From positions 248,001 through 312,000 of the forward strand of contig NZ_JAFDVE010000009.1 in NCBI RefSeq assembly GCF_016888005.1: 64,000 nucleotides of DNA. The letters are read 5' to 3'. Made by a program: the position numbers and the translations under genes. This stretch comes from Phycicoccus sp. CSK15P-2. Its GTDB lineage: Bacteria; Actinomycetota; Actinomycetes; Actinomycetales; Dermatophilaceae. Numbering within the stretch: the stretch's first letter is position 1; the number at the start of each line of letters is the position of its first letter. Of this stretch, positions 287 through 50,043 are shown piece after piece. Under the pieces are notes generated by a model. It made no database searches, had not been told where the DNA came from, and saw only the letters and a program-made list of their open reading frames with translations.

Positions 287-292
287 TATGGT
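287..292 (+). promoter_or_regulatory. -10 element, leaderless DUF4184 gene
   Basis: TATGGT is followed by 6 nt and then the GTG at 299. No ribosome binding site is present, so transcription probably starts at the GTG itself. Confidence 0.6.
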
Positions 293-298
293 TGGCCG

Positions 299-997
299 GT
301 GCCGTTCACCCCCGCCCACGTGGCTGCCGTCCTCCCGGTGATCCGGGTGCGCAGCCGGTGGGTCGTCCCGGTGGCGTGGGTCGTCGGCTCGATGGTGCCG
401 GACCTCGCCTGGTTCCTCGTCGGCAGCCGCGCGTACGGTCTCGGCCACTCCGCGCTCGGTCTCGTCACGCTCGACCTCGCGCTCGGCGTGGTGCTCGTCG
501 CGGGGTGGCGGTTCGTCGCGCTCGGTCCGGTGCGCGACCTCGCGCCGACCGCTCTCGCCGAGCGCCTGCCCCGTCCGTCCGGGGTGACGGTTCGCGAGTG
601 GCCCGGCGTCGTCGTCGGCGTCGTCGCCGGGGCCGCGACCCATGTCGTCTGGGACTCCTTCACCCACCGCGGGCGGTGGGGTGCGCGGCACCTCGACCTG
701 CTCGCGGCGACGTACGGACCTCTGCCCGGGTACAAGTACGCGCAGTACGCGAGCGGCGTCGTCGGCGTCCTCCTCGTCGTCGTGGCCATGCGGCGCTGGT
801 GGCGCGTCACCGTCCGGGCCGAGGTGACGGACCGCCGGGTGGCACCTGCCCATCGCGTGACCGCACTGGCCGGAGTGTCGGTGCTCGCCGTCGTGCGGGC
901 CGTGGCCCGGGCCGGAGCAGCTCTCCTCGTCGGCGGCCTGGCGGTGTGTGGCGCCTGGTGGGCCCTGCCCCGGCGTGCGGCCGCTCCGGCGGGGTAG
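299..997 (+). CDS. DUF4184 family membrane protein
   Basis: Encodes 232 aa. The N terminus MPFTPAHVAAVLPVI, followed by a V-I-G-S-M-x-P-D-like segment (VVGSMVPDLAWFL, about residues 28-40), is the hallmark of DUF4184, a family of integral membrane proteins without established biochemical function. Four or five hydrophobic stretches are visible (about 22-40, 52-72, 100-118, 148-162, 185-225). A conserved-looking HVVWDSFTHRG lies near the middle and could be a metal or catalytic site, but this is inference. The GTG start at 299 is fixed by the family N terminus and by the -10 element 6 nt upstream. The TAG stop at 995 is shared with the -10 of the next gene. Confidence 0.75.
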   Translation: MPFTPAHVAAVLPVIRVRSRWVVPVAWVVGSMVPDLAWFLVGSRAYGLGHSALGLVTLDLALGVVLVAGWRFVALGPVRDLAPTALAERLPRPSGVTVREWPGVVVGVVAGAATHVVWDSFTHRGRWGARHLDLLAATYGPLPGYKYAQYASGVVGVLLVVVAMRRWWRVTVRAEVTDRRVAPAHRVTALAGVSVLAVVRAVARAGAALLVGGLAVCGAWWALPRRAAAPAG

Positions 998-1000
998 CGT
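995..1000 (+). promoter_or_regulatory. -10 element overlapping the upstream stop codon
   Basis: TAGCGT begins with the TAG stop of the DUF4184 gene and ends 7 nt before the ATG at 1008, giving a leaderless start. Confidence 0.6.
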
Positions 1001-1007
1001 CCAGGAC

Positions 1008-1478
1008 ATGCCACGATCCATCGCGACGAACACGACGGTCGACCTCGACGGGCTCCTCGAGTTCGTCCGGCCTCGGCACTCGATGGTCCTCATGACGACG
1101 CGGGCCTCGGACGGCCGGCCCCAGGCGTCCCCGGTCACCGGTGGCGTCGACGACTCCGGCCGGATCGTCGTCACGAGCTATCCCGAGCGCGCCAAGGTGC
1201 ACAACGCCCGCCGCGACCCCCGGTGCAGCGTGCTCGTCCTGTCAGACGACTTCGGCGACGCGTGGGTGCAGGTCGACGGCGACTGCGAGGTCATCGACGC
1301 CGCGGACGACGTCGAGCCGTTCGTCGAGTACTTCCGCAACATCTCGGGGGAGCACCCGGACTGGGACGAGTACCGGCAGGCGATGGTCGACCAGGGCAAG
1401 TCGCTGCTTCGGATGACGCCGACGCGGTGGTCGCCGGTCGCGACCGGTGGGTTCCCCGCCCGCCTGGCGGACGGCTGA
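1008..1478 (+). CDS. PPOX-class (pyridoxamine 5'-phosphate oxidase-like) protein
   Basis: A 156-aa split-barrel flavin/F420-binding fold protein. Family features seen are the N-terminal strand segment (LLEFVRPRHSMVLMTTRASDGRPQASPVTGGVDD), the KVHNARRDPRCSVLVL segment about residues 63-78 and the C-terminal RMTPTRWSPV. Actinobacterial members mostly bind F420 or FMN and reduce small molecules; which substrate applies here cannot be told from sequence. The ATG at 1008 lies 10 bp after the previous stop and is probably leaderless. The gene sits between the DUF4184 gene and coaE, each with its own -10, so it need not be in an operon with them. Confidence 0.8.
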   Translation: MPRSIATNTTVDLDGLLEFVRPRHSMVLMTTRASDGRPQASPVTGGVDDSGRIVVTSYPERAKVHNARRDPRCSVLVLSDDFGDAWVQVDGDCEVIDAADDVEPFVEYFRNISGEHPDWDEYRQAMVDQGKSLLRMTPTRWSPVATGGFPARLADG

Positions 1479-1491
1479 CCCCGAAGGCCGC

Positions 1492-1497
1492 TAGGGT
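1492..1497 (+). promoter_or_regulatory. -10 element, leaderless coaE
   Basis: TAGGGT followed by 7 nt and the coaE ATG at 1505; no Shine-Dalgarno sequence in between. Confidence 0.65.
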
Positions 1498-1504
1498 CGG
1501 CCGC

Positions 1505-2689
1505 ATGCTGCGCGTCGGGCTCACGGGAGGGATCGGGTCCGGCAAGTCCACCGCGGCTCGGGCGCTGGCCTCGCTCGGCGCGGTGGTCGTCGACGCCGAT
1601 GCGGTGGCTCGCGAGGTCGTCGAATCGGGGACCCCGGGCCTGCAGGCGGTCCGGCGGCGCTTCGGCGACGAGGTCGTCCGTCCCGACGGCACGCTGGACC
1701 GCCCCGCGCTCGGCCGGCTCGTCTTCGCGGACGGGGGTGCGCTGAAGGACCTCGAGGCGATCACTCATCCGGCCATCTGGGAGCGCACGGCAGAGCTGTT
1801 CGCGCAGGCCCCCGAGGACGCCGTCGTCGTCCACGACATGCCGCTGATCGTCGAGAAGGACATGGCGGGGGAGTACCACCTCGTCCTCGTCGTGGGTGCC
1901 TCGGAGGAGACCCGGCTGCGGCGGCTCGTCGACGACCGCGGGATGACCGAGGACGACGCCCGGTCCCGGATCTCGGCCCAGGCGGACGACGACGCCCGGC
2001 GGGCCGCTGCGGACGTGTGGCTCGACAACGAGGGCACCGTGACCGCGTTGGAGGTGGACGTCCTGCGGGTCTGGCACCGCCGGCTCGAGCCGTTCCTCGA
2101 CAACCTCCGGGCGGGCGCGCGCAGCCGTCTCGCCGGCCCGGTGCTCAGCCCACCCGACCCCGCGTGGCCGGGCCAGGCGGCCCGGCTGCTGGCGCGGGTG
2201 CGGCACGCTGTCGGCGACGTGGCCACCACCGGTGACCACGTCGGGTCGACCGCCGTCGACGGGCTGCCGGCCAAGGACGTCGTCGACCTCCAGGTCGGGG
2301 TCACGTCGATGGCCCGGGCGGACGAGCCCGGTTTCGTCGAGGCGATGACGCGGGCGGGCTTCGTCCTCGTCGAGGACGTCGTCGACGACCGCGGCAGGGA
2401 CGGCCGTCAATGGCCGAAGCGCCTCTACGGGTCGGCCGACCCGGGGCGGGTCACCCACGTGCACGTCCGGGAGGTGGGGTCAGCGGGCTGGGAGCTCGCC
2501 CTCCTGTTCCGGGACTGGCTGCGGGCCGAGGCGGGGGAACGGGCCGACTACGCGGCCATGAAGGCGGACCTCGCCGGGCGGCTCGCCGACACGACGGAGT
2601 ACGCGGAGGCCAAGGAGCCCTGGTTCGACCAGGCCTGGAACCGCGCACGGGCCTGGGCGGAGCAGACGGGGTGGTCCGCCACCACGTGA
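1505..2689 (+). CDS. coaE: Dephospho-CoA kinase fused to a GrpB-like (UPF0157) domain
   Basis: 394 aa in two parts. Residues 1-200 are dephospho-CoA kinase, which phosphorylates the 3'-OH of dephospho-CoA as the last step of CoA synthesis: P-loop GGIGSGKST at 8-16, DADAVAREV at 31-39, and the lid segment RLRRLVDDRGMTEDDARSRI. From about residue 215 to the end lies a GrpB/UPF0157 domain with the HVGSTAVDGLPAKDVVDLQV signature and HVHVREVGSAGWELALLFRDWLR. M. tuberculosis CoaE (Rv1631) has the same two-domain plan, so this is a lineage trait rather than an assembly artefact. The GrpB domain is related to nucleotidyltransferases; its role here is not established by the sequence. The ATG is leaderless by spacing. 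Confidence 0.95.
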   Translation: MLRVGLTGGIGSGKSTAARALASLGAVVVDADAVAREVVESGTPGLQAVRRRFGDEVVRPDGTLDRPALGRLVFADGGALKDLEAITHPAIWERTAELFAQAPEDAVVVHDMPLIVEKDMAGEYHLVLVVGASEETRLRRLVDDRGMTEDDARSRISAQADDDARRAAADVWLDNEGTVTALEVDVLRVWHRRLEPFLDNLRAGARSRLAGPVLSPPDPAWPGQAARLLARVRHAVGDVATTGDHVGSTAVDGLPAKDVVDLQVGVTSMARADEPGFVEAMTRAGFVLVEDVVDDRGRDGRQWPKRLYGSADPGRVTHVHVREVGSAGWELALLFRDWLRAEAGERADYAAMKADLAGRLADTTEYAEAKEPWFDQAWNRARAWAEQTGWSATT

Positions 2690-2752: not shown

Positions 2753-2758
2753 TACCGT
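2753..2758 (+). promoter_or_regulatory. -10 element, leaderless uvrB
   Basis: TACCGT, 6 nt, then ATG at 2765. No LexA-type SOS box (GAAC-N4-GTTC) is seen nearby. Confidence 0.6.
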
Positions 2759-2764
2759 AGGGGC

Positions 2765-4882
2765 ATGCGCCCCACCACCGAGCTCCAGCGCCGCGTCGCG
2801 CCGTTCGAGGTCATCTCCGAGTTCGCGCCGGCGGGCGACCAGCCGAAGGCCATCGCCGAGCTCGCGCGCCGGGTCGAGGCCGGTGAGCAGGACGTCGTGC
2901 TGCTCGGTGCCACCGGTACCGGCAAGTCCGCGACGACCGCGTGGCTCGTCGAGCAGGTGCAGCGCCCCACCCTGGTCATGGCGCCCAACAAGACGCTCGC
3001 CGCTCAGCTGGCCAACGAGTTCCGCGAGCTCCTGCCGAACAACGCCGTCGAGTACTTTGTCAGCTACTACGACTACTACCAGCCCGAGGCCTACGTCCCG
3101 CAGTCGGACACCTACATCGAGAAGGACTCCTCGATCAACGACGAGGTCGAGCGGCTGCGGCACAGTGCCACCAACAGCCTCCTGACCCGCCGCGACGTCG
3201 TCGTGGTCGCGTCCGTCTCGTGCATCTACGGCCTCGGCACGCCGCAGGAGTACGTCGACCGCATGGTCCCGCTGCGGGTCGGCGACGAGGTCGACCGCGA
3301 CGACCTGCTGCGCAAGTTCGTCCACATGCAGTACACCCGCAACGACCTCGCCTTCACCCGCGGCACGTTCCGGGTCCGGGGAGACACCGTCGAGATCATC
3401 CCGGTCTACGAGGAGCTCGCGCTCCGGATCGAGTTCTTCGGCGACGAGGTCGAGCGGCTCTACACGCTGCACCCGGTCACCGGCGAGGTGGTGCGCGAGG
3501 AGGACGAGATGTACGTCTTCCCGGCCTCGCACTACGTCGCCGGTCCGGCGCGGATGGAGCGCGCGATCGCCGGCATCGAGGCCGAGCTCGAGGAGCAGCT
3601 CGCGACCTTCGAGCGGCAGGGCAAGCTGCTCGAGGCGCAGCGGCTGCGGATGCGCACGACCTACGACATCGAGATGATGCGCCAGATCGGCTCCTGCTCG
3701 GGCATCGAGAACTACTCGATGCACATCGACGGCCGGTCCCCGGGCTCGGCACCGAACTGCCTGCTCGACTACTTCCCCGAGGACTTCCTGCTCGTCATCG
3801 ACGAGTCACACGTCACTGTGCCGCAGATCGGCGCGATGTACGAGGGCGACATGTCGCGCAAGCGTACGCTCGTCGAGCACGGCTTCCGGCTGCCCTCGGC
3901 CATGGACAACCGCCCGCTGAGGTGGGAGGAGTTCCTCGAGCGGATCGGTCAGACCGTCTACCTGTCGGCAACGCCGGGGGACTACGAGCGGGCGAAGTCC
4001 GACGGCGTCGTCGAGCAGATCATCCGTCCCACCGGGCTCGTCGACCCCGAGGTCGTCCTCAAGCCCACGAAGGGCCAGATCGACGACCTCCTGCACGAGA
4101 TCACCGTGCGCACCGAGCGCAACGAGCGGGTGCTCGTCACGACGCTCACGAAGAAGATGGCCGAGGACCTCACCGACTACCTCCTCGACAAGGGGGTCCG
4201 GGTCCGCTACCTGCACTCCGACATCGACACCCTGCGCAGGGTCGAGCTCCTCCGCGAGCTGCGGCTGGGGGAGTACGACGTCCTCGTCGGCATCAACCTG
4301 CTACGCGAAGGGCTCGACCTCCCCGAGGTCTCGCTCGTCGCCATCCTCGACGCCGACAAGGAGGGGTTCCTGCGCAGTACCCGGTCCCTCATCCAGACCA
4401 TCGGCCGCGCGGCGCGCAACGTCTCCGGTCAGGTCCACATGTACGCCGACACCGTCACGCCCTCGATGCGAGACGCGGTGGACGAGACCGGGAGGCGGCG
4501 TGAGAAGCAGCTCGCCTACAACCGGGAGAACGGCATCGACCCGCAGCCGCTGCGCAAGCGGATCGCCGACATCACCGACATGCTCCAGCGTGAGGACGCC
4601 GACACCGAGGCCCTGCTCGGCTCCGGCCGGGCGGTCTCCCGGGGCAAGGCCGACGGAGGGCGCGGGGGGCGGGGTCAGGTCGCAGCCGACGCCGACGCCG
4701 CGCTCGGGTCGCGTCGTGGGGAGGACCTGCCGGCGAGCGAGCTGGCCGGCCTCATCCAGGAGCTCACGACCCAGATGCACCAGGCCGCGGGGGACCTCCA
4801 CTTCGAGCTCGCGGCACGGCTGCGCGACGAGATCGGCGACCTCAAGAAGGAGCTCCGCCAGATGAGCGAGGCCACGCGCTGA
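2765..4882 (+). CDS. uvrB: Excinuclease ABC subunit B
   Basis: 705 aa. UvrB is the helicase-like damage-verifying subunit of nucleotide excision repair: it is loaded by UvrA and then recruits UvrC. Visible features are Walker A GATGTGKS at 48-55, the beta-hairpin region containing [21 protein letters not shown] (about 98-118), DESHVTVPQ (DEXH-type motif II) near residue 345, the helicase motif [31 protein letters not shown], and a C-terminal UVR domain (about 660-695) that contacts UvrC. A Gly/Arg-rich linker (about 620-650) precedes the UVR domain. Length is normal. The ATG at 2765 gives the standard N terminus and lies 6 nt after a -10 element. Confidence 0.97.
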
Positions 4883-4929: not shown

Positions 4930-4935
4930 TAGGCT
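4930..4935 (+). promoter_or_regulatory. -10 element, leaderless TerC gene
   Basis: TAGGCT, 6 nt, GTG at 4942. Confidence 0.55.
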
Positions 4936-4941
4936 GTCGCG

Positions 4942-6000
4942 GTGCTCCCCACCACCCTTCCCACGGCGACCGCTGCCCTGGAGGTCCTGCCGTGGGTCTG
5001 GTGGCTGACCATCGGGGTCGCGGGGGTCGTCCTGGCCGTCGACGTCGTCGTCATCGCACGTCGGCCACACCGGCCGTCGACCCGCGAGCTCAGCGTCGCG
5101 CTCGGTGGGTACGTGGGTGCTGCGGTGCTCTTCGGACTGGGGCTGTGGTGGGTCGCGGGCGGTCGGCTGGCGGGGGAGTTCTTCGCCGGCTGGCTCACCG
5201 AGTACTCGCTCTCGGTCGACAACCTCTTCATCTTCATCCTCATCATGGCGGCCTTCTCCGTCCCGGAGAAGCTGCAGCAGTTCGCGCTCATGGTCGGCAT
5301 CGTCATCGCGATCGTCCTGCGCGGCATCTTCATCGCCGTCGGCGCGGCGGCGATCGAGCGGTTCAGCTGGGTCTTCTACGTCTTCGGGGCCTTCCTCGTC
5401 TACACGGCGGTGCAGCTCGTGCGCCAGGGGGAGAGCTCGGACGACGAGTACGAGGAGAGCCGCTTCATGCGGTTCGTGGAGCGCCGTCTCCCGGCGACGA
5501 AGTCGTTCGACGGCACGAGCCTGTTCACCGTGGAGAACGGCAAGCGTCTCGCCACCCCGCTGCTCTTCGTGATCATCGCCCTCGGCACCACCGACCTCCT
5601 GTTCGCGCTCGACTCCATCCCCGCCATCTACGGGCTGACCCGCGAGCCCTACCTCGTCCTCACCGCGAACCTGTTCGCGCTCATGGGCCTGCGACAGCTG
5701 TACTTCCTCATCGGCGGCCTGCTCAAGAAGCTCGTCTACCTCAGCTACGGGCTCGCGCTCCTGCTCGCGTTCATCGGCGTCAAGCTGGTCCTCCACGCCC
5801 TGCACGAGAACGACCTGCCGTTCGTCAACGGGGGAGAGAACGTGCCGGTCCCGGAGATCCCCATTGCGGTGTCGCTCGGGGCGATCGTCGTCATCCTCGG
5901 CGTCACGACCGCGCTCAGCCTGTGGCGTACCCGGCGTGGACCCGAGCCGACCCCGGAGGAGGAGGCCGGACCGCGGCGGACCTCCGGCGACCCGGTCTGA
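4942..6000 (+). CDS. TerC family integral membrane protein
   Basis: 352 aa with about eight or nine hydrophobic segments. The two TerC signatures are present: LTEYSLSVDNLFIFILIM near residue 90 and TDLLFALDSIPAIYGLT near residue 215, each with the intramembrane acidic residues of the family. TerC/Alx proteins are linked to metal (Mn2+) homeostasis and tellurite resistance; in this family the chromosomal copies are thought to export manganese, for example during metalation of exported enzymes. No tellurite cluster is nearby, so I favour a housekeeping metal role. It ends 4 bp before the convergent EamA gene. The C-terminal 25 residues are charged and poorly conserved. Confidence 0.88.
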   Translation: MLPTTLPTATAALEVLPWVWWLTIGVAGVVLAVDVVVIARRPHRPSTRELSVALGGYVGAAVLFGLGLWWVAGGRLAGEFFAGWLTEYSLSVDNLFIFILIMAAFSVPEKLQQFALMVGIVIAIVLRGIFIAVGAAAIERFSWVFYVFGAFLVYTAVQLVRQGESSDDEYEESRFMRFVERRLPATKSFDGTSLFTVENGKRLATPLLFVIIALGTTDLLFALDSIPAIYGLTREPYLVLTANLFALMGLRQLYFLIGGLLKKLVYLSYGLALLLAFIGVKLVLHALHENDLPFVNGGENVPVPEIPIAVSLGAIVVILGVTTALSLWRTRRGPEPTPEEEAGPRRTSGDPV

Positions 6001-6004
6001 CCCC

Positions 6005-6874
6005 TCAGGAGCCGGTCGACGCGGGCGCCTTGCGCGCTCCGAGCCCGAGGACGATCGCCGAGGCCACCACGACGAGGGCCATCCCCAGCAGCTGGCTCGG
6101 CGCCAGCCGCTGGCCGAGCACGACGAGGCCCGCGAGCGCTGCCGCCGCGGGCTCGAGGCTGAGCAGGATGCCGAACACCTGGGCGCGCAGGCGGCGCAGC
6201 GCGAGGAGCTCGAGGGAGTAGGGGAGCACCGAGGACAGGACGGCGATCCCGAGCCCCTTGGCGAGGATCGTGGGGTCCCACTGCGGCACGCTCGCGACCC
6301 CGAACGGCAGCGTCACGGCCGTCGCGAAGACCATGGCGAGAGCGAGGCCCTCGAGGTGGGGGAACTCCGCGCCGGTCCGGCGGCTCAGCACGATGTAGGT
6401 GGCCCAGAACCCGCCTGCTGTGAGGGCGAGGAGGATGCCGACCCACTCGAGCTCGCCGAGCGGGACGTGCAGCGCCTCGGAGATGAGGACCACGCCCCCT
6501 GCGGCGGCGAGGACGGCGACGCCGTCCAGCACCCGGCGGGAGAGCGCGGCGGCGAGGGCCAGGGGCCCGATGAACTCGATCGTCACAGCCACCCCGATGG
6601 GCAGGTGCCCGAGGGAGCCGTAGAACGCGAAGTTCATCAACCCGAGCGCGACGCCGAACGCCGCCACGGTGGCCCAGGCGCGGCGCGAGTGGCCGCGCCA
6701 CCGCGGACGGACGACGGCGAGCAGCAGCGCGGTGGCGAAGAGGAGCCGCAGGACGACGGACCCGCCGGCACCGATCGACGGGACGAGGGTGGCGGCGAGG
6801 GCCCCGCCGAACTGGACCGAGACGATCCCGCCGAGGACGAGGACCGGTGCGGGGACACGGTCGGCGGTCGTCAC
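6005..6874 (-). CDS. EamA/RhtA-type drug/metabolite exporter
   Basis: 289 aa with ten hydrophobic segments in two repeats, the plan of EamA (DMT superfamily) exporters. The first repeat begins LVLGGIVSVQFGGALAATL and ends before ALHVPLGELEWVGILLALTAGGFWATYIVLS, where the second begins. Overall it resembles RhtA, the threonine/homoserine exporter, but substrates in this family are not predictable from sequence. The gene is convergent with the TerC gene. The GTG start at 6874 is 6 nt after a TAGCCT hexamer. Confidence 0.85.
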   Translation of the reverse strand: MTTADRVPAPVLVLGGIVSVQFGGALAATLVPSIGAGGSVVLRLLFATALLLAVVRPRWRGHSRRAWATVAAFGVALGLMNFAFYGSLGHLPIGVAVTIEFIGPLALAAALSRRVLDGVAVLAAAGGVVLISEALHVPLGELEWVGILLALTAGGFWATYIVLSRRTGAEFPHLEGLALAMVFATAVTLPFGVASVPQWDPTILAKGLGIAVLSSVLPYSLELLALRRLRAQVFGILLSLEPAAAALAGLVVLGQRLAPSQLLGMALVVVASAIVLGLGARKAPASTGS

Positions 6875-6880
6875 CGCGCC

Positions 6881-6886
6881 AGGCTA
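6881..6886 (-). promoter_or_regulatory. -10 element, leaderless EamA gene
   Basis: On the minus strand TAGCCT, 6 nt, GTG at 6874. Confidence 0.55.
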
Positions 6887-6999: not shown

Positions 7000-7644
7000 C
7001 TAGGGGCGGGCGGGCACCGCGTCGAGCACGACGTCCAGGGTGGCGAGGAAGCTCTCGCGGGTGTATCCGGTGGGTTCGAGCCGACGTGCGTAGTGCGCCA
7101 GGGCGGGGAACTCCGCCGGGTCGGCGCCCAGGGTGATGACCCGGAAGGACTCCAGCCTCCGCTGCCGGTCGCTCGTGCTGGAGGTCCGGGCCGCCGCGTG
7201 CGCGGAGATCAGCGACACGGACAGGGTCACGAGCCGGTGGTACCACTCGGGGACGATCTCCTCGGGAAGCCCGGCGTCGGTGAGGGCCTGGAGGGTCTCC
7301 TCGATGACGAGTTGGGTGCCCGGCCCGCTCCCGGGGTAGTGGCTCGTGTCCTTGGCCAACTGTGGCAGCGCGGCGTACGCGTCCCACGAGCGCAGGATGA
7401 GGTCGACGAGCCGCGCGCGCCAGGGCCCCTCCCGCCGGTAGCCGGCCATGGCCTGGACGAGCACGTGGTCCACGACCGCGAGCATCAGCTCGGTGCGGTT
7501 GTGGAAGTGGCGGTACAGGCTGGAGGAGTCGGTACCCAGCTCCGCGGCCAGCCTGCGCATGCTGAAGGTCTCGTCACCGTCGGAGTGGGACAGCAGCTCG
7601 ACCGCGGCGTCGAGGATGGTCTGCCGGTCCCAGCGCTGGCGCAT
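7000..7644 (-). CDS. TetR family transcriptional regulator
   Basis: 214 aa. The N-terminal helix-turn-helix (about 27-46, FSMRRLAAELGTDSSSLYRHF) is typical TetR; the remaining ~150 residues form the ligand-binding half and show no family signature I recognise. The ATG at 7644 is chosen over the longer reading to 7728 because it gives the usual TetR N terminus (RQTILDAAVELL) and lies 6 nt after TACGCT. It diverges from a decayed P450 gene and a thioesterase-like gene; a perfect palindrome between them (7711-7727) is a candidate operator. It may have controlled the now broken oxidation gene. Confidence 0.88.
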   Translation of the reverse strand: MRQRWDRQTILDAAVELLSHSDGDETFSMRRLAAELGTDSSSLYRHFHNRTELMLAVVDHVLVQAMAGYRREGPWRARLVDLILRSWDAYAALPQLAKDTSHYPGSGPGTQLVIEETLQALTDAGLPEEIVPEWYHRLVTLSVSLISAHAAARTSSTSDRQRRLESFRVITLGADPAEFPALAHYARRLEPTGYTRESFLATLDVVLDAVPARP

Positions 7645-7650
7645 GGCGCC

Positions 7651-7656
7651 AGCGTA
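7651..7656 (-). promoter_or_regulatory. -10 element, leaderless tetR
   Basis: Minus strand TACGCT, 6 nt, ATG at 7644. Confidence 0.55.
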
Positions 7657-9605: not shown

Positions 9606-10298
9606 TCAGCGTCCTGCGGGCAGGGCGGGCAACGGGTCCGCGGTCACGCCGTCGGTGAGGCCGCGGGCGAGCCAGGCCAAGACGGCCGCCCGGTCGCCGC
9701 TGACCTCGGTCGTCCCGAGGCCGATCGTCCACTCGTCGCCCTCCGTCGTGCGCAGCGTGACGTCGGGGGTGTCGGTGACGCCGCGCAACCGGTCGAGCTC
9801 GTCGGCCAGGAGGAGCTCCACCAGCTCCGGCTCGACGTCGGCGAAGCCGAACCCGGCATCGAGGTCGACGTGGTGGTACACGACCTCACGCAGCCGCATG
9901 TAGGGCAGGTTCTCGGCCGTGACCACGGCGACGCCCGGGGTGCGCGCGAGCAGCCGGCCCTCGTGCTCGGGGCCGATCCGGCGCAGGGCGGCCGGCAGCG
10001 GACGGGCGGTGCGGCGCAGGTCCTCGAGCTGGACGTCCCGGTCGCGGGTCGCGCCGGCCTCGATGTCGGCGTCCCGGGCCTCCGGGGAGGGGTACATCGT
10101 CTCGCCGGTGCGGTCGACCGCCGCGCGGACCAGGGCGAGGAACGCGTCGGCGTTGCGTGCCACGTGGGTGACGACATGGCCGCGGGTCCATCCGGCACAC
10201 AGGCTCGGGGCGGCGAGGTCGTCGACGCGTTGAACGGTCGTGAGCAAGCGCTCGGTGTGGCGGTCGAGGAGGGTGAGGAGGTCGACATCGGAGGCCAT
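9606..10298 (-). CDS. Maleylpyruvate isomerase family (mycothiol-dependent, DinB-like) protein
   Basis: 230 aa with the DinB/MDMPI four-helix fold: LLDRHTERLLTTVQRVDD at the N terminus, the metal-ligand helix SLCAGWTRGHVVTHVARNADAF (His41, His45), and a second ligand segment MRLREVVYHHVDLDAGF. Members include mycothiol-dependent maleylpyruvate isomerase and many uncharacterised mycothiol transferases. The ATG at 10298 lies 7 nt downstream of TAGCGT, whose TAG is the stop of the GH15 gene. The MBL-fold hydrolase follows 3 nt downstream. No aromatic ring-cleavage genes are near, so a detoxification role seems likelier than gentisate catabolism. Confidence 0.82.
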   Translation of the reverse strand: MASDVDLLTLLDRHTERLLTTVQRVDDLAAPSLCAGWTRGHVVTHVARNADAFLALVRAAVDRTGETMYPSPEARDADIEAGATRDRDVQLEDLRRTARPLPAALRRIGPEHEGRLLARTPGVAVVTAENLPYMRLREVVYHHVDLDAGFGFADVEPELVELLLADELDRLRGVTDTPDVTLRTTEGDEWTIGLGTTEVSGDRAAVLAWLARGLTDGVTADPLPALPAGR

Positions 10299-10305
10299 GA
10301 CCGCG

Positions 10306-10311
10306 ACGCTA
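10306..10311 (-). promoter_or_regulatory. -10 element overlapping the GH15 stop codon
   Basis: Minus strand TAGCGT at 10311-10306: its TAG is the stop of the GH15 gene and it ends 7 nt before the isomerase ATG at 10298. Same hexamer and geometry as at 995-1000. Confidence 0.55.
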
Positions 10312-12099
10312 CTCCCCGGCGGCCTTCTCGGCCCCGACGATCGCGTCGGCGGCCTGCACGAGCGCCAGGTGCGAGAAGGCCTGCGGGAAGTTGCCGAGGA
10401 GCCGCCCCGTGGCCGGGTCGTACTCCTCGGACAGCAGCCCGAGGTCGTTGCGGACGGCCAGCAACCGGTCCATGAGGCCGCGGGCGTCGTCGAGGCGGCC
10501 GCACCGGGCGTAGGACTCGGCGAGCCAGAACGAGCACGCGAGGAAGGGGTTCTCCTCGCCGTCCAGCCCGTCGACCCCGCTGGAGGTCCGGTAGCGCAGC
10601 AGGAAGCCGCCGTGGAGGAGGTCCTCCTCCACGGCCCGGATCGTCCCCTGGACGCGCTCGTCGTCGGCGGGGAGGAACCCCACCGTCGGGATGAGGAGGA
10701 GCGCGGCGTCCACCTCGGTCGTGTCGTAGTGCTGGGTGAAGGTGTTGCGGTCGGCGTCGTACCCCCGGTCGCAGACCTCCGCGTGGACCTGGTCGCGCAG
10801 CGCACGCCAGCGGTCGACGTCTCCGTGGTGGCCGTCCTCCTCGACCGCACGAACGGCCCGGTCGAAGGCTGCCCACACCATGACCCGGGAGTGCGTGAAG
10901 TGCCGCGCGGGGCCGCGGATCTCCCACAGCCCGTGGTCGGTCTGGTCCCAGTGGTCGGCGAGGTCGTCGACCAGCGCACGCTGGACCGCCCAGGACTCGC
11001 CGGACTCCTCGACCCCGAGCTCGCGCGCCCGGGCGAGCGCGATCATCACCTCTCCGAGCACGTCGCTCTGGCGCTGGTGCACGGCACCGTTGCCGACCCG
11101 GACCGGCCGTGAGCCCGCGTAGCCGGGAAGGTGGTCGAGCTCGCGCTCGGGCAGCTCGCGCCCGCCGTCCACCGCGTACATGATCTGGAGGTCACCGGGG
11201 TCACCGGCGACGGCACGCACGAGCCAGTCGCGCCACAGCCTGGTCTCGTCGACGTAGCCGCAGCCGAGCAGCGCCTCCAGCGTGAGCGAGGCGTCCCGGA
11301 GCCAGCAGTACCGGTAGTCCCAGTTCCGGCTCCCGCCGACGTCCTCGGGAAGGCTCGTCGTGGGAGCGGCGACGATGCCGCCGCGGAGCTCGTCGGTGAG
11401 CAGCCGCAGCACGAGGAGGGACCGGGTCACCGCCTCGCGGTACCGCCCCTGGTGGGTGTGCCGCGACGCCCACTCGTCGAAGTGCTGGACGGTGTCCTCG
11501 ACGCGGGAGCGGACCTCGAGCGCCTCGGGCACGTCGCACCAGGACGGGCTCCAGGTCATCGAGAACGCCAGGCGGTCACCGGCGCCGACGGTGAACCGGT
11601 CCCGGTGGTGGTGGTCCTCGGGCTCGGGGAGGCGGTCGCCGCGGAGGACGAGCATGTCGGGGCCGGCGATCGCGCGGATGGCCTGGCGTCCGTCGGAGTC
11701 CTCGACGCGCGAGACCCACGGCAGGACCTTGCCGTACCCGGTGCGGACCACCCACTCGTGGTCCATCTCGACGTCGCCGTCGAGACCCTCGACGACGCGT
11801 ACGAGGTCGGCCCGGCCGTCGCCGAACGGCATGAGGTCGGTGACCCGTACCCGGCCCGTCGCGGTCTCGTGGACGGTGTCGAGGACGAAGCTGTTCCCCC
11901 GGTAGGAACGGGTCGCGGTGGCCTCCTCGACGGGGCCGAGGAACCACCGGCCGTGGTCGTCGGTGCCGAGAACGGCGGCGAAGCACGCGGGGGAGTCGAA
12001 GCGGGGAAGGCACATCCAGTCGACCGCGCCGTGACGGCTCACGAGGGCGGCGCGCTCGGTGTCGCCGAGGAGGGCGTACTCGCCGATCGGGGTGTTCAC
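10309..12099 (-). CDS. Glycoside hydrolase family 15 protein (trehalase/glucoamylase-like)
   Basis: 596 aa, cytosolic (no signal peptide). Begins with the family signature IGEYALLGDTERAALVSRHGAVDWMCLPRFDSPACFAAVLG. The (alpha/alpha)6 barrel shows the first catalytic region GGSRNWDYRYCWLRDASLTLEAL (about 285-310) and the second, LSEEYDPATGRLLGNFPQAFSHLALVQAA (about 552-582), with the acidic residues of GH15. Mycobacterial homologues hydrolyse trehalose; glucoamylase or dextranase activity cannot be excluded. The GTG start is 7 nt after TAGGGT. It runs divergently from uvrA. Confidence 0.85.
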   Translation of the reverse strand: MNTPIGEYALLGDTERAALVSRHGAVDWMCLPRFDSPACFAAVLGTDDHGRWFLGPVEEATATRSYRGNSFVLDTVHETATGRVRVTDLMPFGDGRADLVRVVEGLDGDVEMDHEWVVRTGYGKVLPWVSRVEDSDGRQAIRAIAGPDMLVLRGDRLPEPEDHHHRDRFTVGAGDRLAFSMTWSPSWCDVPEALEVRSRVEDTVQHFDEWASRHTHQGRYREAVTRSLLVLRLLTDELRGGIVAAPTTSLPEDVGGSRNWDYRYCWLRDASLTLEALLGCGYVDETRLWRDWLVRAVAGDPGDLQIMYAVDGGRELPERELDHLPGYAGSRPVRVGNGAVHQRQSDVLGEVMIALARARELGVEESGESWAVQRALVDDLADHWDQTDHGLWEIRGPARHFTHSRVMVWAAFDRAVRAVEEDGHHGDVDRWRALRDQVHAEVCDRGYDADRNTFTQHYDTTEVDAALLLIPTVGFLPADDERVQGTIRAVEEDLLHGGFLLRYRTSSGVDGLDGEENPFLACSFWLAESYARCGRLDDARGLMDRLLAVRNDLGLLSEEYDPATGRLLGNFPQAFSHLALVQAADAIVGAEKAAGE

Positions 12100-12106
12100 C
12101 TCTCCG

Positions 12107-12112
12107 ACCCTA
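12107..12112 (-). promoter_or_regulatory. -10 element, leaderless GH15 gene
   Basis: Minus strand TAGGGT, 7 nt, GTG at 12099. Confidence 0.6.
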
Positions 12113-12154: not shown

Positions 12155-12160
12155 TAGCAT
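12155..12160 (+). promoter_or_regulatory. -10 element, leaderless uvrA
   Basis: TAGCAT, 7 nt, GTG at 12168. The ATG at 12159 lies inside the hexamer and so is a less likely start. Confidence 0.6.
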
Positions 12161-12167
12161 GTCGGAT

Positions 12168-44523: not shown

Positions 44524-45089
44524 GGCTGGCAGGGGAAGCCGCGCGAGAAGACGAGCACGGGCTCGCGCTCCGCGCCGTCGTCGGGGACGTCCCGGTCGGA
44601 CCACCGCTCGAAGACGGCCATGACCTCCTCGGCGACCTCGCGCAGCTCGGCGGGCGAGACGCGCAGCCAGGTCTGCGTCGCGTAGGCCGCGTCGTCCCAC
44701 TCGGGGTCGCTGCCCTCGTTGGCGAGCCAGGCCAGGACCCGCTCGGTCTGCCGTCTGGCTCCGAGTGCGACGGCCTCCCGGGCGGCGTCGACGGCCGCGA
44801 GGTCCTCGAGGTCGACGCTGCTCCACCGCGTCCCCGCGTTCACGAGGCGCCACCAGCGCTCCCGCCGGTCGCGAGCGAGCTCCGGGGCCTCCTCGACCAG
44901 GCCCGCAGCGGCGAGCACCTTGAGGTGGTGGCTGGCGTTGCCGACCGCCTGGCCGGTGCGTGCGGCGAGTGCGGAGGCCGTCGACGGGCCGTCGACCTTC
45001 AGCGCGTCCATCATCCGGGCCCGGAAGGGATGGGCCAGCGCGGCCAGGGGGGCGGCGTCGCGCAGGGTGCGGATCTCCGGCTTCGTCAT
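44520..45089 (-). CDS. ArsR-type winged-helix transcriptional regulator
   Basis: 189 aa. Helix-turn-helix at about 10-75: LAALAHPFRARMMDALKVDGPSTASALAARTGQAVGNASHHLKVLAAAGLVEEA, followed by WWRLVNAGTRWSS. The C-terminal half is helical without metal-binding cysteines of the classic ArsR metal sensors, so it more likely responds to an organic ligand. It is translationally coupled to the MFS exporter. ATG 45089 is leaderless by spacing; repeats of gcacaa just upstream are its likely operator. Confidence 0.85.
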   Translation of the reverse strand: MTKPEIRTLRDAAPLAALAHPFRARMMDALKVDGPSTASALAARTGQAVGNASHHLKVLAAAGLVEEAPELARDRRERWWRLVNAGTRWSSVDLEDLAAVDAAREAVALGARRQTERVLAWLANEGSDPEWDDAAYATQTWLRVSPAELREVAEEVMAVFERWSDRDVPDDGAEREPVLVFSRGFPCQP

Positions 45090-45096
45090 GGTGTCG

Positions 45097-45102
45097 ACGA
45101 TA
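45097..45102 (-). promoter_or_regulatory. -10 element, leaderless arsR-type gene
   Basis: Minus strand TATCGT, 7 nt, ATG at 45089. Confidence 0.6.
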
Positions 45103-45207: not shown

Positions 45208-46125
45208 TCAGGCGGCCAGCGTGGCGTGGTCCTCGGCGCGTGGCGCCGGGACGGCGACCGGGCGCGCGTCCAGGAGGAGCCACGTGGCGGCCGAGACGAA
45301 GACCGCGGAGCCGAGGAGGTGGACCGCGACGAGCGGCACCGGCAGCCCGGTGAGGTACTGCGCGAACCCGACTGCTCCCTGCGCGAGCTCGACGCCGAGG
45401 ACGACGGCCGCCGTGCGCCGCAGCGCGGTGTGCCGGGTCAGCCACAGGACGAGGAGCGTGGCCGCGACGACCGCGTACACGGACCAGGCGTGCAGGCGGC
45501 TCAGCAGCTCGGGGTCGAGGCCGTTGCGCGGCACGTCCGCGTCCCCCGCGTGCGGGCCGCTGCCGGTGACGACCGTGCCGAGGTACACGACGACCCACGC
45601 GAGGGCGTACAGGGCGAGGACGAAGGACCGGACGCGCCCGGACACATCTGCCGGCCGGTGGTCGTGCACCCGGGCGACGAGCCACGTCGCGAGGGCCACG
45701 AGGACGAGCGAGAGCAGCAGGTGCACCGCGACGACCCACGGGTTGAGGTCGGTGAGGACGCTGATGCCCCCGACGACCGCCTGGAGCGGGATGCCGAGCG
45801 CGAGGACGACGGCATGGGTGCGCAGCGACCGGCTCGAGCGGGCCCATCGCCACACCGCGACGACCGTGCCGACGGCGACGGCGACGAGGACGTAGGTGAG
45901 CAGCCGGTTGCCGAACTCGATGACCCCGTGTGCGCCGAGCTCGCGGTGCGGGGTGAACGAGGCGTCCGTGCAGCGCGGCCACGTGGGGCAGCCGAGGCCC
46001 GAGCCCGTGAGCCGCACCAGTGCACCGGTGACGATGATGACCACGTTCGCCACCAGGGAGCCCCAGGCCCAGCGCCGGACCGTCCGGGTGGAGACCTCGG
46101 CGGGGATCAGGGGCGTGCGGACCAC
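45208..46125 (-). CDS. ctaA: Heme A synthase (COX15/CtaA)
   Basis: 305 aa, eight hydrophobic segments in two pseudo-repeats, oxidising the C8 methyl of heme O to give heme A. Haem-ligand regions: GLGCPTWPRCTDASFTPH with HRELGAHGVIEFGNRLLTYVL in the first repeat, AVHLLLSLVLVALAT, then SRLHAWSVYAVVAATLLVL and AVHLLGSAVFVSAATWL in the second. It works with ctaB, 3 kb away on the other strand. GTG 46125 is 6 nt after TACGAT (leaderless). Confidence 0.92.
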   Translation of the reverse strand: MVRTPLIPAEVSTRTVRRWAWGSLVANVVIIVTGALVRLTGSGLGCPTWPRCTDASFTPHRELGAHGVIEFGNRLLTYVLVAVAVGTVVAVWRWARSSRSLRTHAVVLALGIPLQAVVGGISVLTDLNPWVVAVHLLLSLVLVALATWLVARVHDHRPADVSGRVRSFVLALYALAWVVVYLGTVVTGSGPHAGDADVPRNGLDPELLSRLHAWSVYAVVAATLLVLWLTRHTALRRTAAVVLGVELAQGAVGFAQYLTGLPVPLVAVHLLGSAVFVSAATWLLLDARPVAVPAPRAEDHATLAA

Positions 46126-46131
46126 GTCCAG

Positions 46132-46137
46132 ATCGTA
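46132..46137 (-). promoter_or_regulatory. -10 element, leaderless ctaA
   Basis: Minus strand TACGAT, 6 nt, GTG at 46125. It lies in the 38-bp gap after the ABC permease gene, so ctaA can be expressed independently of it. Confidence 0.55.
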
Positions 46138-46907: not shown

Positions 46908-47614
46908 CGCTCGGCCTCCGCCGTGAGCCCGAAGTAGACGTCCTCGAGGCTGCGCCCCCCACGGACGGCGTCGAGCGACCCCGCGGCGGCCACCCGGCCG
47001 GCGGTGAGGACGACGACGTCGTCGGCGATCCGCTCGGCCTCCTCGAAGGAATGGGTCGTGAGGACGACGCACGTTCCTCCGCCGGCCTCCGAGCGGAGGA
47101 GGTCCCACACCTCCCGCCGGGCGTGCGGGTCGAGTCCCGCGGTCGGCTCGTCGAGGAAGAGCACCTGCGGGCGGCCGACCAGCGCTGTGGCCAGCGCCAC
47201 CCGCTGGCGCTGGCCCCCGGACATCCGGCGGACGGTGGTCCGGGCGAAGGCGTCGATGCCGAGGCGGGCGGCGAGGTCGTCCACGGGCCACGGGTCCGCG
47301 TAGAGGGCCGCGAGGTGGCGCAGGAGCGGCAGGGGCCGCGTGGTCGTGGGCAGACCGCCGTCCTGGAGCATGACGCCCACCGCGGCCCGGTGCTCGGCCG
47401 ACGCCCGCCAAGGGTCGGTGCCCAGGACTCGGGCCTCTCCCGCATCCGGGCGCCGGAGGCCTTCGAGACACTCGACGGTCGTCGTCTTCCCCGCGCCGTT
47501 CGGGCCGAGCACGGCGGTCACCCGGCCCGAGGAGGCGCTCCAGGAGGCGCCGTCGACCGCGGTCGTCCGCCCGAACGCGTGGCGCAGGTCGTGCACGAGG
47601 ACCGCCGGCGCCAT
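46904..47614 (-). CDS. ABC transporter ATP-binding protein
   Basis: 236 aa. Walker A GPNGAGKTT at 37-45, signature MSGGQRQR at 131-138, Walker B LFLDEPTAG at 152-160, H-loop TTHSF. Partner of the following permease; the CcmA/DrrA-like subgroup of exporters. ATG 47614 lies 8 nt from TAGGAT, so it is nearly leaderless. Its promoter overlaps that of psd on the other strand. Confidence 0.9.
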   Translation of the reverse strand: MAPAVLVHDLRHAFGRTTAVDGASWSASSGRVTAVLGPNGAGKTTTVECLEGLRRPDAGEARVLGTDPWRASAEHRAAVGVMLQDGGLPTTTRPLPLLRHLAALYADPWPVDDLAARLGIDAFARTTVRRMSGGQRQRVALATALVGRPQVLFLDEPTAGLDPHARREVWDLLRSEAGGGTCVVLTTHSFEEAERIADDVVVLTAGRVAAAGSLDAVRGGRSLEDVYFGLTAEAER

Positions 47615-47622
47615 GGCCCGAC

Positions 47623-47632
47623 ATCCTAGGCT
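47623..47632. promoter_or_regulatory. Overlapping divergent -10 elements (ABC ATPase / psd)
   Basis: The 10 bp atcctaggct hold TAGGAT on the minus strand (47628-47623) and TAGGCT on the plus strand (47627-47632), sharing 2 bp. The first serves the ABC genes, the second ends 7 nt before the psd ATG at 47640. Confidence 0.6.
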
Positions 47633-47639
47633 GGCGCCC

Positions 47640-48311
47640 ATGCCACGCATCGACCGGGAGGCCGCTCCCGCCACCGCCGTCGCGGCCGTCCCCGCCGTGA
47701 CCGCACTGCTCGCCGGACGCGTCCGGGCCGCCCTCGTGCTCGCCGCACTGCCCGTCGCGGTCGCCGCGTTCTTCCGGGACCCGGACCGCACCCCGGACGT
47801 CCGCCCCGCGCCGGTCGACGACGTCCTGGCGCCTGCCGACGGCAAGGTGATGTACGCGGGCCCCGGGCAGGACGGCGTCGCGCCCGAGGGGGAGTGGCAG
47901 CAGGTGAGCATCTTCCTGTCCGCGTTCGACGTGCACATGAACCGCGCTCCCTACGGTGGCAGCGTCGTCGAGGTCGTCGAGCGGCCGGGCCGGTGGCTCG
48001 CCGCGTACCGGCACGAGAGCGCCCATCTCAACGAGCGCAGCGACATCACCGTGGAGCGTGAGGTCGACGGTGGGGTGCGTCGCGTCCACTTCCGGCAGAT
48101 CGTCGGGCTGATGGCCCGCCGGGTCGTCACCCGGGTCTCCGTGGGCGACGACGTCGCCACCGGTCAGCGCATCGGCCTGATGAAGTTCGGGTCGCGGATG
48201 GACGTCTTCGTCCCGGCGGAGTGCGACCTCCTCGTCCGGACCGGGGAGCGGGTCGTGGCCGGCGAGACGGTCATCGCGCGGTGGCGCGCCGCGTCCGTGG
48301 TTCCCCGATGA
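47640..48311 (+). CDS. psd: Phosphatidylserine decarboxylase
   Basis: 223 aa, the short (archaeal/actinobacterial) type. Makes phosphatidylethanolamine from phosphatidylserine using a pyruvoyl group formed by self-cleavage at the Gly-Ser of MKFGSRMDV (Ser185). Hydrophobic N terminus (about 10-44) anchors it in the membrane; FRDPDR, VLAPADGKV, IFLSAFDVHMNRAP and HESAHLNERS are conserved. ATG 47640 is leaderless by spacing. The pssA start overlaps its stop by 4 bp. Confidence 0.94.
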   Translation: MPRIDREAAPATAVAAVPAVTALLAGRVRAALVLAALPVAVAAFFRDPDRTPDVRPAPVDDVLAPADGKVMYAGPGQDGVAPEGEWQQVSIFLSAFDVHMNRAPYGGSVVEVVERPGRWLAAYRHESAHLNERSDITVEREVDGGVRRVHFRQIVGLMARRVVTRVSVGDDVATGQRIGLMKFGSRMDVFVPAECDLLVRTGERVVAGETVIARWRAASVVPR

Positions 48312-49270
48312 GCAGCGGCGAACCGGCCACCGGGCGGCGGCGCATCCTGGACCGCTGGCGCCTGGTCTCGCCCACCGGAGCCCGGGTCGTCTCGCTCCGG
48401 CAGCTCCGCAAGCGCGAGCGGGCCCGCCTCCTGGCGCCGAGTGCCTTCACGACGCTCAACCTCGTCAGCGGGTTCTCGTCGGTGCTGCTGGCCTTCCGGG
48501 GTCATTTCACGCTTGCGGCGGTGCTCATCGCCTTCTCGATCGTCATGGACATCGCGGACGGCTTCGTCGCCCGGCTCGTCGGTGCAACCTCGCCGTTCGG
48601 GCTGCAGCTGGACTCGCTGGCGGACCTCATTTCGTTCGGCGTCGCACCTGCCGTGCTCGTCCACACGTGGGCCCTGGACGACTGGCCCTACCTGGCGTGG
48701 CTCGTCGCCTTCCTGTGGCTCTCCTGCGCGGCCTTCCGGCTCGCCCGCTTCAACGTGACCATCGACCCGGCTGCCGACAAGCGTTACTTCGTGGGCCTGC
48801 CGTCACCCGGTGCCGCGAGCGTCGTCATCGCGACCATCTTCGCCCTGGACTCACCGCACTTCGGGCCGGGCACCGGCCCGTGGCTGGCGTGGTTCCCGCT
48901 CATCGTCAGCGTGGGCCCGGCGCTCCTCATGGTCATGACCATCCGCTTCCGGTCGTTCCGCAACCTCCTGTCGCCGCGGACGCGACGAGCCCGGCTCGGC
49001 ACCGCCGCGGTCGCGCTCGCCATCGTCGTCGGGCTGGCGGTCGCGCCGGGGCTCACCGGTCTCGTCGTCGCCTACGGCTACGTCCTTACGGCACCGCTCG
49101 GGGTCCTCTCCGCGCCGCTGCGCGAGCGCTGGCTCGGCCCCGACGCCGTGGCGCCGCCGCGCCATCGGATGCCGTCGGTGTTCCTGCCCTTCGACGAGGA
49201 CGACGACATCGACGGACCCGCGGTCGAGAACGACGCGTGCGGGCCGGAGCCGGACACGCCGGCAGGCTAA
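48308..49270 (+). CDS. pssA: CDP-diacylglycerol-serine O-phosphatidyltransferase
   Basis: 320 aa. Makes phosphatidylserine, the substrate of Psd. The CDP-alcohol phosphotransferase signature is complete: Asp81, Asp84-Gly85, Ala88-Arg89, Gly98, Asp102 and Asp106 in MDIADGFVARLVGATSPFG...LDSLAD. Six or more transmembrane segments (about 44-110, 118-240). A ~65-residue hydrophilic tail is rich in Asp/Glu. ATGA overlap with psd. Confidence 0.94.
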   Translation: MSSGEPATGRRRILDRWRLVSPTGARVVSLRQLRKRERARLLAPSAFTTLNLVSGFSSVLLAFRGHFTLAAVLIAFSIVMDIADGFVARLVGATSPFGLQLDSLADLISFGVAPAVLVHTWALDDWPYLAWLVAFLWLSCAAFRLARFNVTIDPAADKRYFVGLPSPGAASVVIATIFALDSPHFGPGTGPWLAWFPLIVSVGPALLMVMTIRFRSFRNLLSPRTRRARLGTAAVALAIVVGLAVAPGLTGLVVAYGYVLTAPLGVLSAPLRERWLGPDAVAPPRHRMPSVFLPFDEDDDIDGPAVENDACGPEPDTPAG

Positions 49271-49287
49271 GGGGAGCCCGGCTCCCC
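49271..49287 (+). terminator. Short hairpin after pssA
   Basis: ggggagc-ccg-gctcccc, a 7-bp stem with 3-nt loop, starting at the base after the pssA stop. Confidence 0.5.
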
Positions 49288-49299
49288 CTGCTGACCTGG

Positions 49300-49318
49300 T
49301 TAGGTGAGCCTTCCTTGG
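49300..49318. promoter_or_regulatory. DtxR/IdeR-like iron box before sufR
   Basis: TTAGGTGAGCCTTCCTTGG matches the DtxR/IdeR consensus TTAGGTTAGCCTAACCTAA at 13 of 19 positions, with 11 of the first 12 identical. It lies about 21-39 bp upstream of the sufR -10. An inverse TTAGGT half-site (plus strand acctaa, 49336-49341) overlaps the -10 itself. Confidence 0.55.
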
Positions 49319-49338
49319 GCGGGCCCGGGACAATTACC

Positions 49339-49344
49339 TAACAT
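49339..49344 (+). promoter_or_regulatory. -10 element, leaderless sufR
   Basis: TAACAT, 6 nt, GTG at 49351. Confidence 0.6.
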
Positions 49345-49350
49345 GGCTGT

Positions 49351-50043
49351 GTGGTTAATGCCGATGCCCACCTCGAGTCGCGGACGCGCGACCGGGTGCT
49401 GCGCGTCGTGAGCCAGGCGGGCCCGGTCAGCATCGCGGGCCTCGTCGACCAGCTCGGCCTCACCGAGACCGCCGTCCGCCGGCACGTGTCCACCCTCCAC
49501 GCCGACGGTCTCGTCGAGCCCCGCGAGGGTACGGCGCCGCGTCGGCGCGGTCGCCCCGCCAAGGTCTGGGTGCTCTCCGAGGCGGGTCACCGGGCGCTCG
49601 CATCCGACTACGACCACCTCGCCGGAGACGCCCTGCGCTTCCTGCGCCGCACCGGTGGCGAGAGCGCCGTCCAGGCTTTCGCCGAGGAGCGCGTCGCCGG
49701 TCTCGAGGCGCGCATCGCGGGCCGCCTCGTCAGCGCGGGCGACGACCCCCGGGCCCGCGCGGACGCCCTCGTCGACGCCCTCAACACCGAGGGCTACTCC
49801 GCGTCCACCCGTCCCGTGGGAACACCTGACGCCCCTCCGGCGCTGACCGGGGTGCAGCTGTGCCAGGGGCACTGTCCCATCCAGCACGTCGCATCCGAGT
49901 TCCCCGAGCTGTGCGAGGCCGAGACCGAGGCGTTCTCGCGTCTGCTCGGCGTCCACGTCCAGCGCCTGGCGACCCTCGCCCACGGCGACCACGTCTGCAC
50001 CACGTTCGTCCCGACCCCGACCACCGAGAGGCCATCGCGATGA
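49351..50043 (+). CDS. sufR: SufR-type [4Fe-4S] transcriptional regulator of the SUF operon
   Basis: 230 aa. N-terminal winged helix (about 12-60; [45 protein letters not shown]) followed by [21 protein letters not shown]-terminal cysteines Cys171, Cys175, Cys188 and Cys216 ([18 protein letters not shown]) can ligate an iron-sulfur cluster, as in known SufR repressors, which release DNA when the cluster is lost. First gene of the suf operon; its ATGA-type overlap with sufB (4 bp) couples them. A DtxR-like box lies upstream, adding iron control. Confidence 0.93.

Follow-up and report, generated by a model that had tools for sequence, protein, structure and literature searches.

Probable leaderless genes preceded by TANNNT hexamers at a narrow spacing in Phycicoccus sp. 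CSK15P-2

Many genes in a 64,000-nucleotide stretch of the Phycicoccus sp. CSK15P-2 genome (contig NZ_JAFDVE010000009.1, positions 248,001 to 312,000; hereafter, the window) have the hexamer TANNNT at a nearly constant distance before the start codon. What holds the two elements together? We argue that these are very probably leaderless genes, transcribed from TANNNT -10 elements. Leaderless transcription is a familiar feature of Actinobacteria (PMC3160421, PMC3898074, PMC4633059, PMC3890552; these and other papers are cited here from extracts of their text), and is seen here unusually cleanly. A reading of the window from its sequence only had proposed this interpretation for at least 15 genes, and our analysis supports it. 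The distance d is counted in nt from the first T of the hexamer to the start codon, so that d = 12, 13 and 14 correspond to spacers of 6, 7 and 8 nt. All 15 proposed pairs are present, at d = 12 (7 sites) or d = 13 (8 sites), each with an in-frame ATG or GTG. No Shine-Dalgarno sequence fits between hexamer and start in any of the 15; a GGAG at site 10298 abuts the hexamer on its upstream side. The sites are as follows, with the orthologues in the genus that keep the arrangement.

287..301, plus strand: DUF4184 protein (Pfam); TATGGT, 6-nt spacer, GTG; orthologues 1/1
995..1010, plus strand: PNPOx-like protein (Pfam); TAGCGT, 7-nt spacer, ATG; orthologues 1/4
1492..1507, plus strand: coaE (dephospho-CoA kinase + GrpB); TAGGGT, 7-nt spacer, ATG; orthologues 5/6
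2753..2767, plus strand: uvrB; TACCGT, 6-nt spacer, ATG; orthologues 10/10
4930..4944, plus strand: TerC-family membrane protein; TAGGCT, 6-nt spacer, GTG; orthologues 9/9
6872..6886, minus strand: EamA transporter; TAGCCT, 6-nt spacer, GTG; orthologues 9/9
7642..7656, minus strand: TetR regulator; TACGCT, 6-nt spacer, ATG
10296..10311, minus strand: MDMPI_N protein; TAGCGT, 7-nt spacer, ATG; orthologues 8/8
12097..12112, minus strand: GH15/trehalase-like protein, divergent from uvrA; TAGGGT, 7-nt spacer, GTG; orthologues 9/9
12155..12170, plus strand: uvrA; TAGCAT, 7-nt spacer, GTG; orthologues 9/9
24366..24381, plus strand: uvrC; TAGGGT, 7-nt spacer, ATG; orthologues 9/9
45087..45102, minus strand: ArsR-type helix-turn-helix (HTH) regulator; TATCGT, 7-nt spacer, ATG; orthologues 5/5
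46123..46137, minus strand: COX15/CtaA; TACGAT, 6-nt spacer, GTG; orthologues 2/2 in the stretches examined
47627..47642, plus strand: phosphatidylserine decarboxylase (psd); TAGGCT, 7-nt spacer, ATG; orthologues 6/6 with aligned start
49339..49353, plus strand: SufR-like HTH gene heading sufB, sufD, sufC, sufS; TAACAT, 6-nt spacer, GTG; orthologues 11/11

Could the pattern have arisen because starts were chosen for the hexamer lying upstream of them? The 15 sites were hand-picked, and five of them (1008, 12168, 45089, 47640 and 49351) differ from the start favored by coding potential, which coincides with the hexamer start in the other 10. The enrichment was measured with start codons picked by coding potential alone, ignoring the hexamer. 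Of the 3,915,746 bases of the genome, 849,576 (about 850 kb, 22%, window included) were analyzed with a home-made hexamer gene finder. It called 761 genes (88-93% coding per stretch), and the 755 with enough upstream sequence form the test set. The arrangement occurs in 10/60 genes of the window (shuffle mean 0.22, maximum 2 in 1000 shuffles). The distance distribution against shuffled upstream regions, the check proposed in the sequence-only reading, gives 109/755 genes at d = 12-13 in the genome sample, compared to 2.3 +/- 1.6 (maximum 8) in 300 rounds of dinucleotide shuffling of the upstream 60 nt. These hexamer-blind counts refute the choice of starts as an explanation, and we give it practically no weight.

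The observed spacing is narrow. The hexamer lies at d = 12, 13 and 14 in 74, 35 and 14 of the 755 genes, at d = 11 in one gene and at d = 15-18 in four; any other distance from 6 to 59 accounts for 0-5 genes. The claimed rigidity at 6-7 nt holds as a sharp peak at d = 12-13, although "exactly" was slightly too strict, given the 8-nt spacer in 14 genes. Nothing comparable appears at 12-14 in the same 755 genes when the hexamer is permuted, and there is no peak for start codons in the two remaining frames. The result can also be obtained without a gene model: the 689 TANNNT copies in the sample are followed by ATG or GTG (RTG) at d = 12, 13 and 14 in 109, 81 and 31 cases, with 11-27 at other distances from 6 to 39, which amounts to 221 at d = 12-14 vs. 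about 54 from the level elsewhere. Over the whole genome, TASSST-N6-ATG occurs 130 times and its reversed pattern 24 times; with N9 in place of N6, the counts are 16 and 12. Little or no peak is seen in three distant families (G056, G104, G022). When one hexamer position at a time is relaxed, a modest excess (about 32 genes above background) arises only if the first T is dropped, and an extended -10 motif (TGN) searched at d = 12-14 was not found. Counting coding-potential starts only, the excess is 15.6%; 171/755 genes become candidates when any in-frame start within 150 nt is allowed. The arrangement appears to mark between about one-sixth and one-quarter of the genes, or about one in five.

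How might such spacing arise? In the proposed mechanism, TANNNT would be the -10 element of a housekeeping-type promoter, from which RNA polymerase (RNAP) would begin transcription at downstream position 7 or 8 (more rarely 9), where the first base (A or G) of the ATG or GTG lies. The mRNA would then begin with the start codon and be translated without a Shine-Dalgarno sequence, and the rigid spacing would reflect the start-site geometry of RNAP, not a ribosome signal. E. coli RNAP starts at positions 6, 7, 8 and 9 downstream of the -10 element in 8, 55, 29 and 7% of cases (PMC5730371); start codons here occupy these positions in 1, 74, 35 and 14 genes. An active promoter at the hexamer, a 5' end at the start codon and ribosome initiation there are what we infer from these sequence patterns.

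The start codons and their surroundings fit this mechanism. Only ATG and GTG, among the 64 codons, are strongly enriched in frame at the hexamer distance; the ratios of 2.5-2.9 for AGA, GTA and AAT come from counts of 1-5 and are taken as noise. TTG starts none of 172 candidates vs. 25/584 non-candidate genes. A Shine-Dalgarno motif of at least five bases is found in 0/171 candidates vs. 159/584 others, and a four-base motif in 7/171 candidates. The base at -1 is C in 67% and A in 1% of the candidates (48% and 5% in the 584 others). The candidates thus combine a purine at +1, a pyrimidine (C) at -1, ATG or GTG rather than TTG, and no transcribable Shine-Dalgarno sequence. They also prefer the heads of transcription units, being 86/226 of divergent genes, 56/228 of genes with a same-strand gap of at least 40 bp, 27/296 of those closer and 2/5 of those unplaced.

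TANNNT itself is rare: 689 copies on both strands of the 850 kb, compared to 1750 expected from the TA count and 4257 from base composition. This scarcity may reflect avoidance of spurious promoters.

The hexamer could instead be a translation signal within a longer 5' leader, and its locking to the start codon is what a ribosome signal would show. However, a signal of this kind accounts poorly for the rarity of TANNNT elsewhere (689 vs. 1750), for the preference for transcription-unit heads, for the T-A-T pattern, which is that of a -10 element, and for bases around the start that obey the start-site rules of RNAP. We consider it very improbable.

Conservation in the genus points the same way. 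The closest named UvrB to that of the window is from Phycicoccus sonneratiae (92%), and up to 11 other genus genomes were compared, an orthologue being counted when TANNNT lies 12-14 from an in-frame ATG or GTG no more than 60 nt from the aligned start. By this measure, 94 of 98 comparable orthologues of 14 of the 15 genes keep the arrangement. The 98 exclude genes with no match in the stretch examined, partial alignments, and two psd fragments of G008, whose alignment begins at residue 84. None of the 11 other genus genomes has a match to the TetR gene at 7644 (threshold E 1e-20), and four have none to psd. The four misses are three orthologues of 1008, which carry xAGGCT at about the same place, and one of coaE. 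The spacer changes between 6 and 7 nt among orthologues (four and four, respectively, for 10298; seven and two for uvrC; three and six for 12099; three and two for 45089). The uvrC start is ATG here and GTG in nine genus orthologues, with the arrangement kept. All three of uvrB, uvrA and uvrC are of the leaderless type here and in the comparable genus genomes (10/10, 9/9 and 9/9). The coaE of genus genome G011 (L159) has neither hexamer nor ATG at the aligned start; a GTG immediately follows the stop codon of the preceding gene, which looks like a switch to coupled initiation.

Orthologues also bear on gene starts. The hexamer had been said to fix ambiguous starts in uvrA, uvrC, tetR and coaE. 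This is borne out for uvrA, where coding potential alone picked 12117 and orthologues back 12168 (9/9), but uvrC, coaE and tetR were already given the same start by coding potential. All five differing starts are backed by orthologues, 1008 weakly (1/4). Reading starts from the hexamer corrects those missed by coding statistics in 5/15 genes of the window.

Suppose that transcription has to begin exactly at the start codon. A purine at a favored position closer to the hexamer would then be harmful whenever the codon lies further out. The bases before the start indeed depend on spacing. Candidates of this genome have a pyrimidine at -1 in 59/92 cases at d = 12, 54/60 at d = 13 and 16/19 at d = 14, and at -2 in 39/92, 28/60 and 16/19, respectively (an alternative count with one more d = 14 candidate gives 17/20 at both positions). 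Among 114 control TANNNT copies away from starts, position 7 is a pyrimidine in 52%. By Fisher's test, the -1 difference between d = 13 and d = 12 has p = 0.0003, and the -2 difference between d = 14 and the other spacings has p = 0.001; restricted to exact coding-potential starts, these values become 0.019 and 0.010. The rule was noticed post hoc in this discovery genome. In four other sampled Actinomycetes, the -1 effect recurs (49/57 at d = 13 vs. 62/87 at d = 12, p = 0.045) and the -2 effect is absent (p = 1.0). The gene models for this replication started from the model of the discovery genome; models trained on the longest open reading frames (ORFs) were poor (0/133 genes in G033), and gave p values of 0.029 (-1) and 0.62 (-2), or 0.33 and 0.50 with exact starts. 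A second set of 22 named loci, left from 32 after ten were dropped for GC <0.66 or length <10 kb, gives 32/38 vs. 36/56 for -1 (p = 0.038); these loci are not fully independent, since orthologous genes recur among them and one belongs to the same genus. Pooling both replication sets gives 81/95 vs. 98/143 for -1 (p = 0.004) and 11/18 vs. 108/238 for -2 (p = 0.23); adding the discovery set gives 135/155 vs. 157/235 (p = 5e-6) and 27/37 vs. 175/390 (p = 0.002). The -1 effect is weaker for GTG (43/58 vs. 59/102) than for ATG (90/95 vs. 98/132). The first base of the discriminator also shifts, from 88/235 pyrimidine at d = 12 to 89/155 at d = 13 (p = 0.0001). This is in line with the E. coli discriminator rule, in which pyrimidine-rich discriminators favor downstream starts and purine-rich ones upstream starts (PMC5730371). 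We found no account of a spacing-dependent base rule in the extracts of the literature searched.

A broader spacing is seen in family f39 of the same phylum. Its genome G115, whose nearest UvrB among 80 loci is that of Candidatus Gaiellasilicea (67%), has the hexamer at each d from 12 to 18, in 4, 8, 8, 11, 6, 4 and 5 of 182 genes, respectively, and in single genes at eleven other distances; the shape is the same without a gene model. Pattern counts in G115 at d = 15 are close to those at d = 12 (76 and 75; controls 9 and 5). The d = 15 patterns were surveyed in 61 genomes of the class, six of them in f39. These six have 333 matches vs. 105 controls, each above its own control (the weakest, G147, 47 vs. 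28), compared to 1611 vs. 1852 in the other 55. The trait is not strictly confined to f39, with d = 15 exceeding the control in, for example, G173 (27 vs. 8), G141 (27 vs. 11), G130 (37 vs. 19) and G121 (30 vs. 17). Few purines occupy positions 7-8 in G115 when d = 13-14, and at longer d they are commoner, if unevenly, at positions 7-9 (4-11 genes per class), from which we infer probable leaders of 1-6 nt. The hexamer-start spacing of 12-18 nt in f39 is observed in G115, L279-L283 and L289-L293. The family is a natural point of comparison for asking how long a leader actinobacterial ribosomes can accept.

Taken together, we lean somewhat toward the following proposal: where the start codon lies beyond the position preferred by RNAP, purines are purged from the preferred positions and the discriminator is shifted to pyrimidines, selection thereby enforcing a zero-nucleotide leader; f39 would have relaxed this rule, with starts 12-18 nt from the -10 element and leaders of 1-6 nt as a routine translated class.

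Such leaders raise the question of whether the genes of the window are only nearly leaderless, with transcription starting 1-3 nt upstream, a tiny leader and a spacing fixed only approximately. The spacer does range over 6-8 nt and varies among orthologues too, the 12099 gene has a G at -1, and the f39 spacing of 12-18, with more purines at 7-9 for d of at least 15, resembles such a state, if in small numbers. However, in the Phycicoccus genome purines are depleted at -1 for d = 13 (6/60 vs. 33/92 at d = 12) and at -2 for d = 14 (3/19), and d = 15-18 is nearly empty (4/755). Tiny leaders are therefore a very unlikely general explanation, and truly leaderless genes remain our preferred reading. 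Four observations weigh against it. The base table of the candidates shows no conserved -35 element, although M. tuberculosis likewise has no -35 consensus (PMC3898074). The -2 rule at d = 14 is significant in the discovery genome only. The 12099 gene breaks the -1 rule, having G at -1 with d = 13, as do five of its six d = 13 orthologues; a 1-nt leader is possible there for this reason. Finally, the full hexamer is present in just one of four orthologues of 1008.

Does the window hold more such genes? It contains 44 TANNNT copies on both strands, 17 of them with ATG or GTG at 12-13 nt. Fifteen are the sites listed above, and the other two, 26980(+) and 49257(-), are among six further hexamer/RTG pairs at d = 11-15:

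3852, minus strand: d = 14; ORF of 27 aa
12166: d = 11; ORF of 1 aa
26980, plus strand: d = 13; within, and in frame with, gene 26329-27228
29283, plus strand: d = 11; TAGGGT (29272-29285) before GTG, in frame, 63 nt 5' of the start of gene 29346-30350
47614, minus strand: d = 14; ABC transporter ATPase (46904-47614, 236 aa), site 47612..47628, TAGGAT, 8-nt spacer, ATG
49257, minus strand: d = 12; ORF of 59 aa, opposite a gene

The TAGGGT at 29272 is more likely an ordinary leadered promoter of gene 29346-30350, because GAGG precedes the start of that gene. Among the six, only 47614(-), missed by both the sequence-only reading and our gene finder, is taken as a probable leaderless gene overlooked earlier.

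This ATPase gene and psd at 47640(+) are divergent and only 25 bp apart, with one TA common to both hexamers (ATCCTAGGCT). The pair is kept in 6/6 genus loci with both ORFs open, and its DNA motif is also visible in G008. The rest of the sample holds a second pair with a shared TA (23 bp) and six pairs at 32-37 bp. The median gap between divergent neighbors is 65 bp when both are leaderless candidates (18 pairs, without the psd pair, which the gene finder mis-modeled), 137 bp when one is (52 pairs) and 121 bp when none is (43 pairs). By geometry, the -35 region of each gene in a compact pair falls in the coding sequence of the other.

Possible operators accompany two regulator genes. An interrupted dyad, ATTnACCnnACA-N4-TGTnnGGTnAAT, at 49332-49359 covers both the -10 element and the GTG with which the SufR-like gene starts; it matches with 0-2 mismatches in the window and 11 genus copies, and is the sole match in the sample at up to 4 mismatches. 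As the S. avermitilis SufR site, CAAC-N6-GTTG, overlaps the -10 element and the transcription start site (TSS) (PMC11995493), the dyad may by analogy be an operator for autoregulation and also limit the choice of the first codons. The gene scores 67.3 bits against the NCBIfam SufR_cyano equivalog, below the cut-off of 178.8, and is called SufR-like only, at the head of a sufB/sufD/sufC/sufS operon. Direct repeats TTGTGCAA and TTGTGC (45089-45148, minus strand) lie just 5' of the -10 element that precedes the ArsR-like gene. Their counterparts in five orthologues are similar, with variants; the repeats are a possible operator.

The analysis suggests that for about one gene in five the start codon can be read directly from the DNA; through the spacing-dependent base rules, leaderless translation is linked to start-site selection by RNAP. 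Our literature searches returned no paper with both "leaderless" and "Intrasporangiaceae", and no TSS map for the Phycicoccus family. To the TA-led and leaderless genes described in Actinobacteria (Zheng et al., 2011; PMC3160421), we add spacing classes with base rules. M. tuberculosis shares the TANNNT -10 element, the lack of a -35 consensus, C at -1 and a purine at +1; its TSSs were measured, with 26% of genes with a primary TSS being leaderless (PMC3898074), whereas the arrangement here is known from sequence. Mycobacterial leaderless genes also have ATG and GTG at the leaderless position, RTG being concentrated at +1 (1098) over +2 to +5 (558) (PMC4633059), unlike the f39 spread over d = 12-18. 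In Corynebacterium glutamicum, 33% are leaderless, all with AUG or GUG; the AUG share is 79% (PMC3890552), compared to ATG in 91/171 candidates here. E. coli RNAP shows the same order of preference, position 7 over 8 over 9, and the same favoring of upstream starts by purine-rich discriminators, but position 6, used in 8% of cases there (PMC5730371), is almost unused here (one gene at d = 11). Less ordinary against this background are the purine depletion before displaced starts, the relaxed spacing of f39, and divergent leaderless genes 23-37 bp apart.

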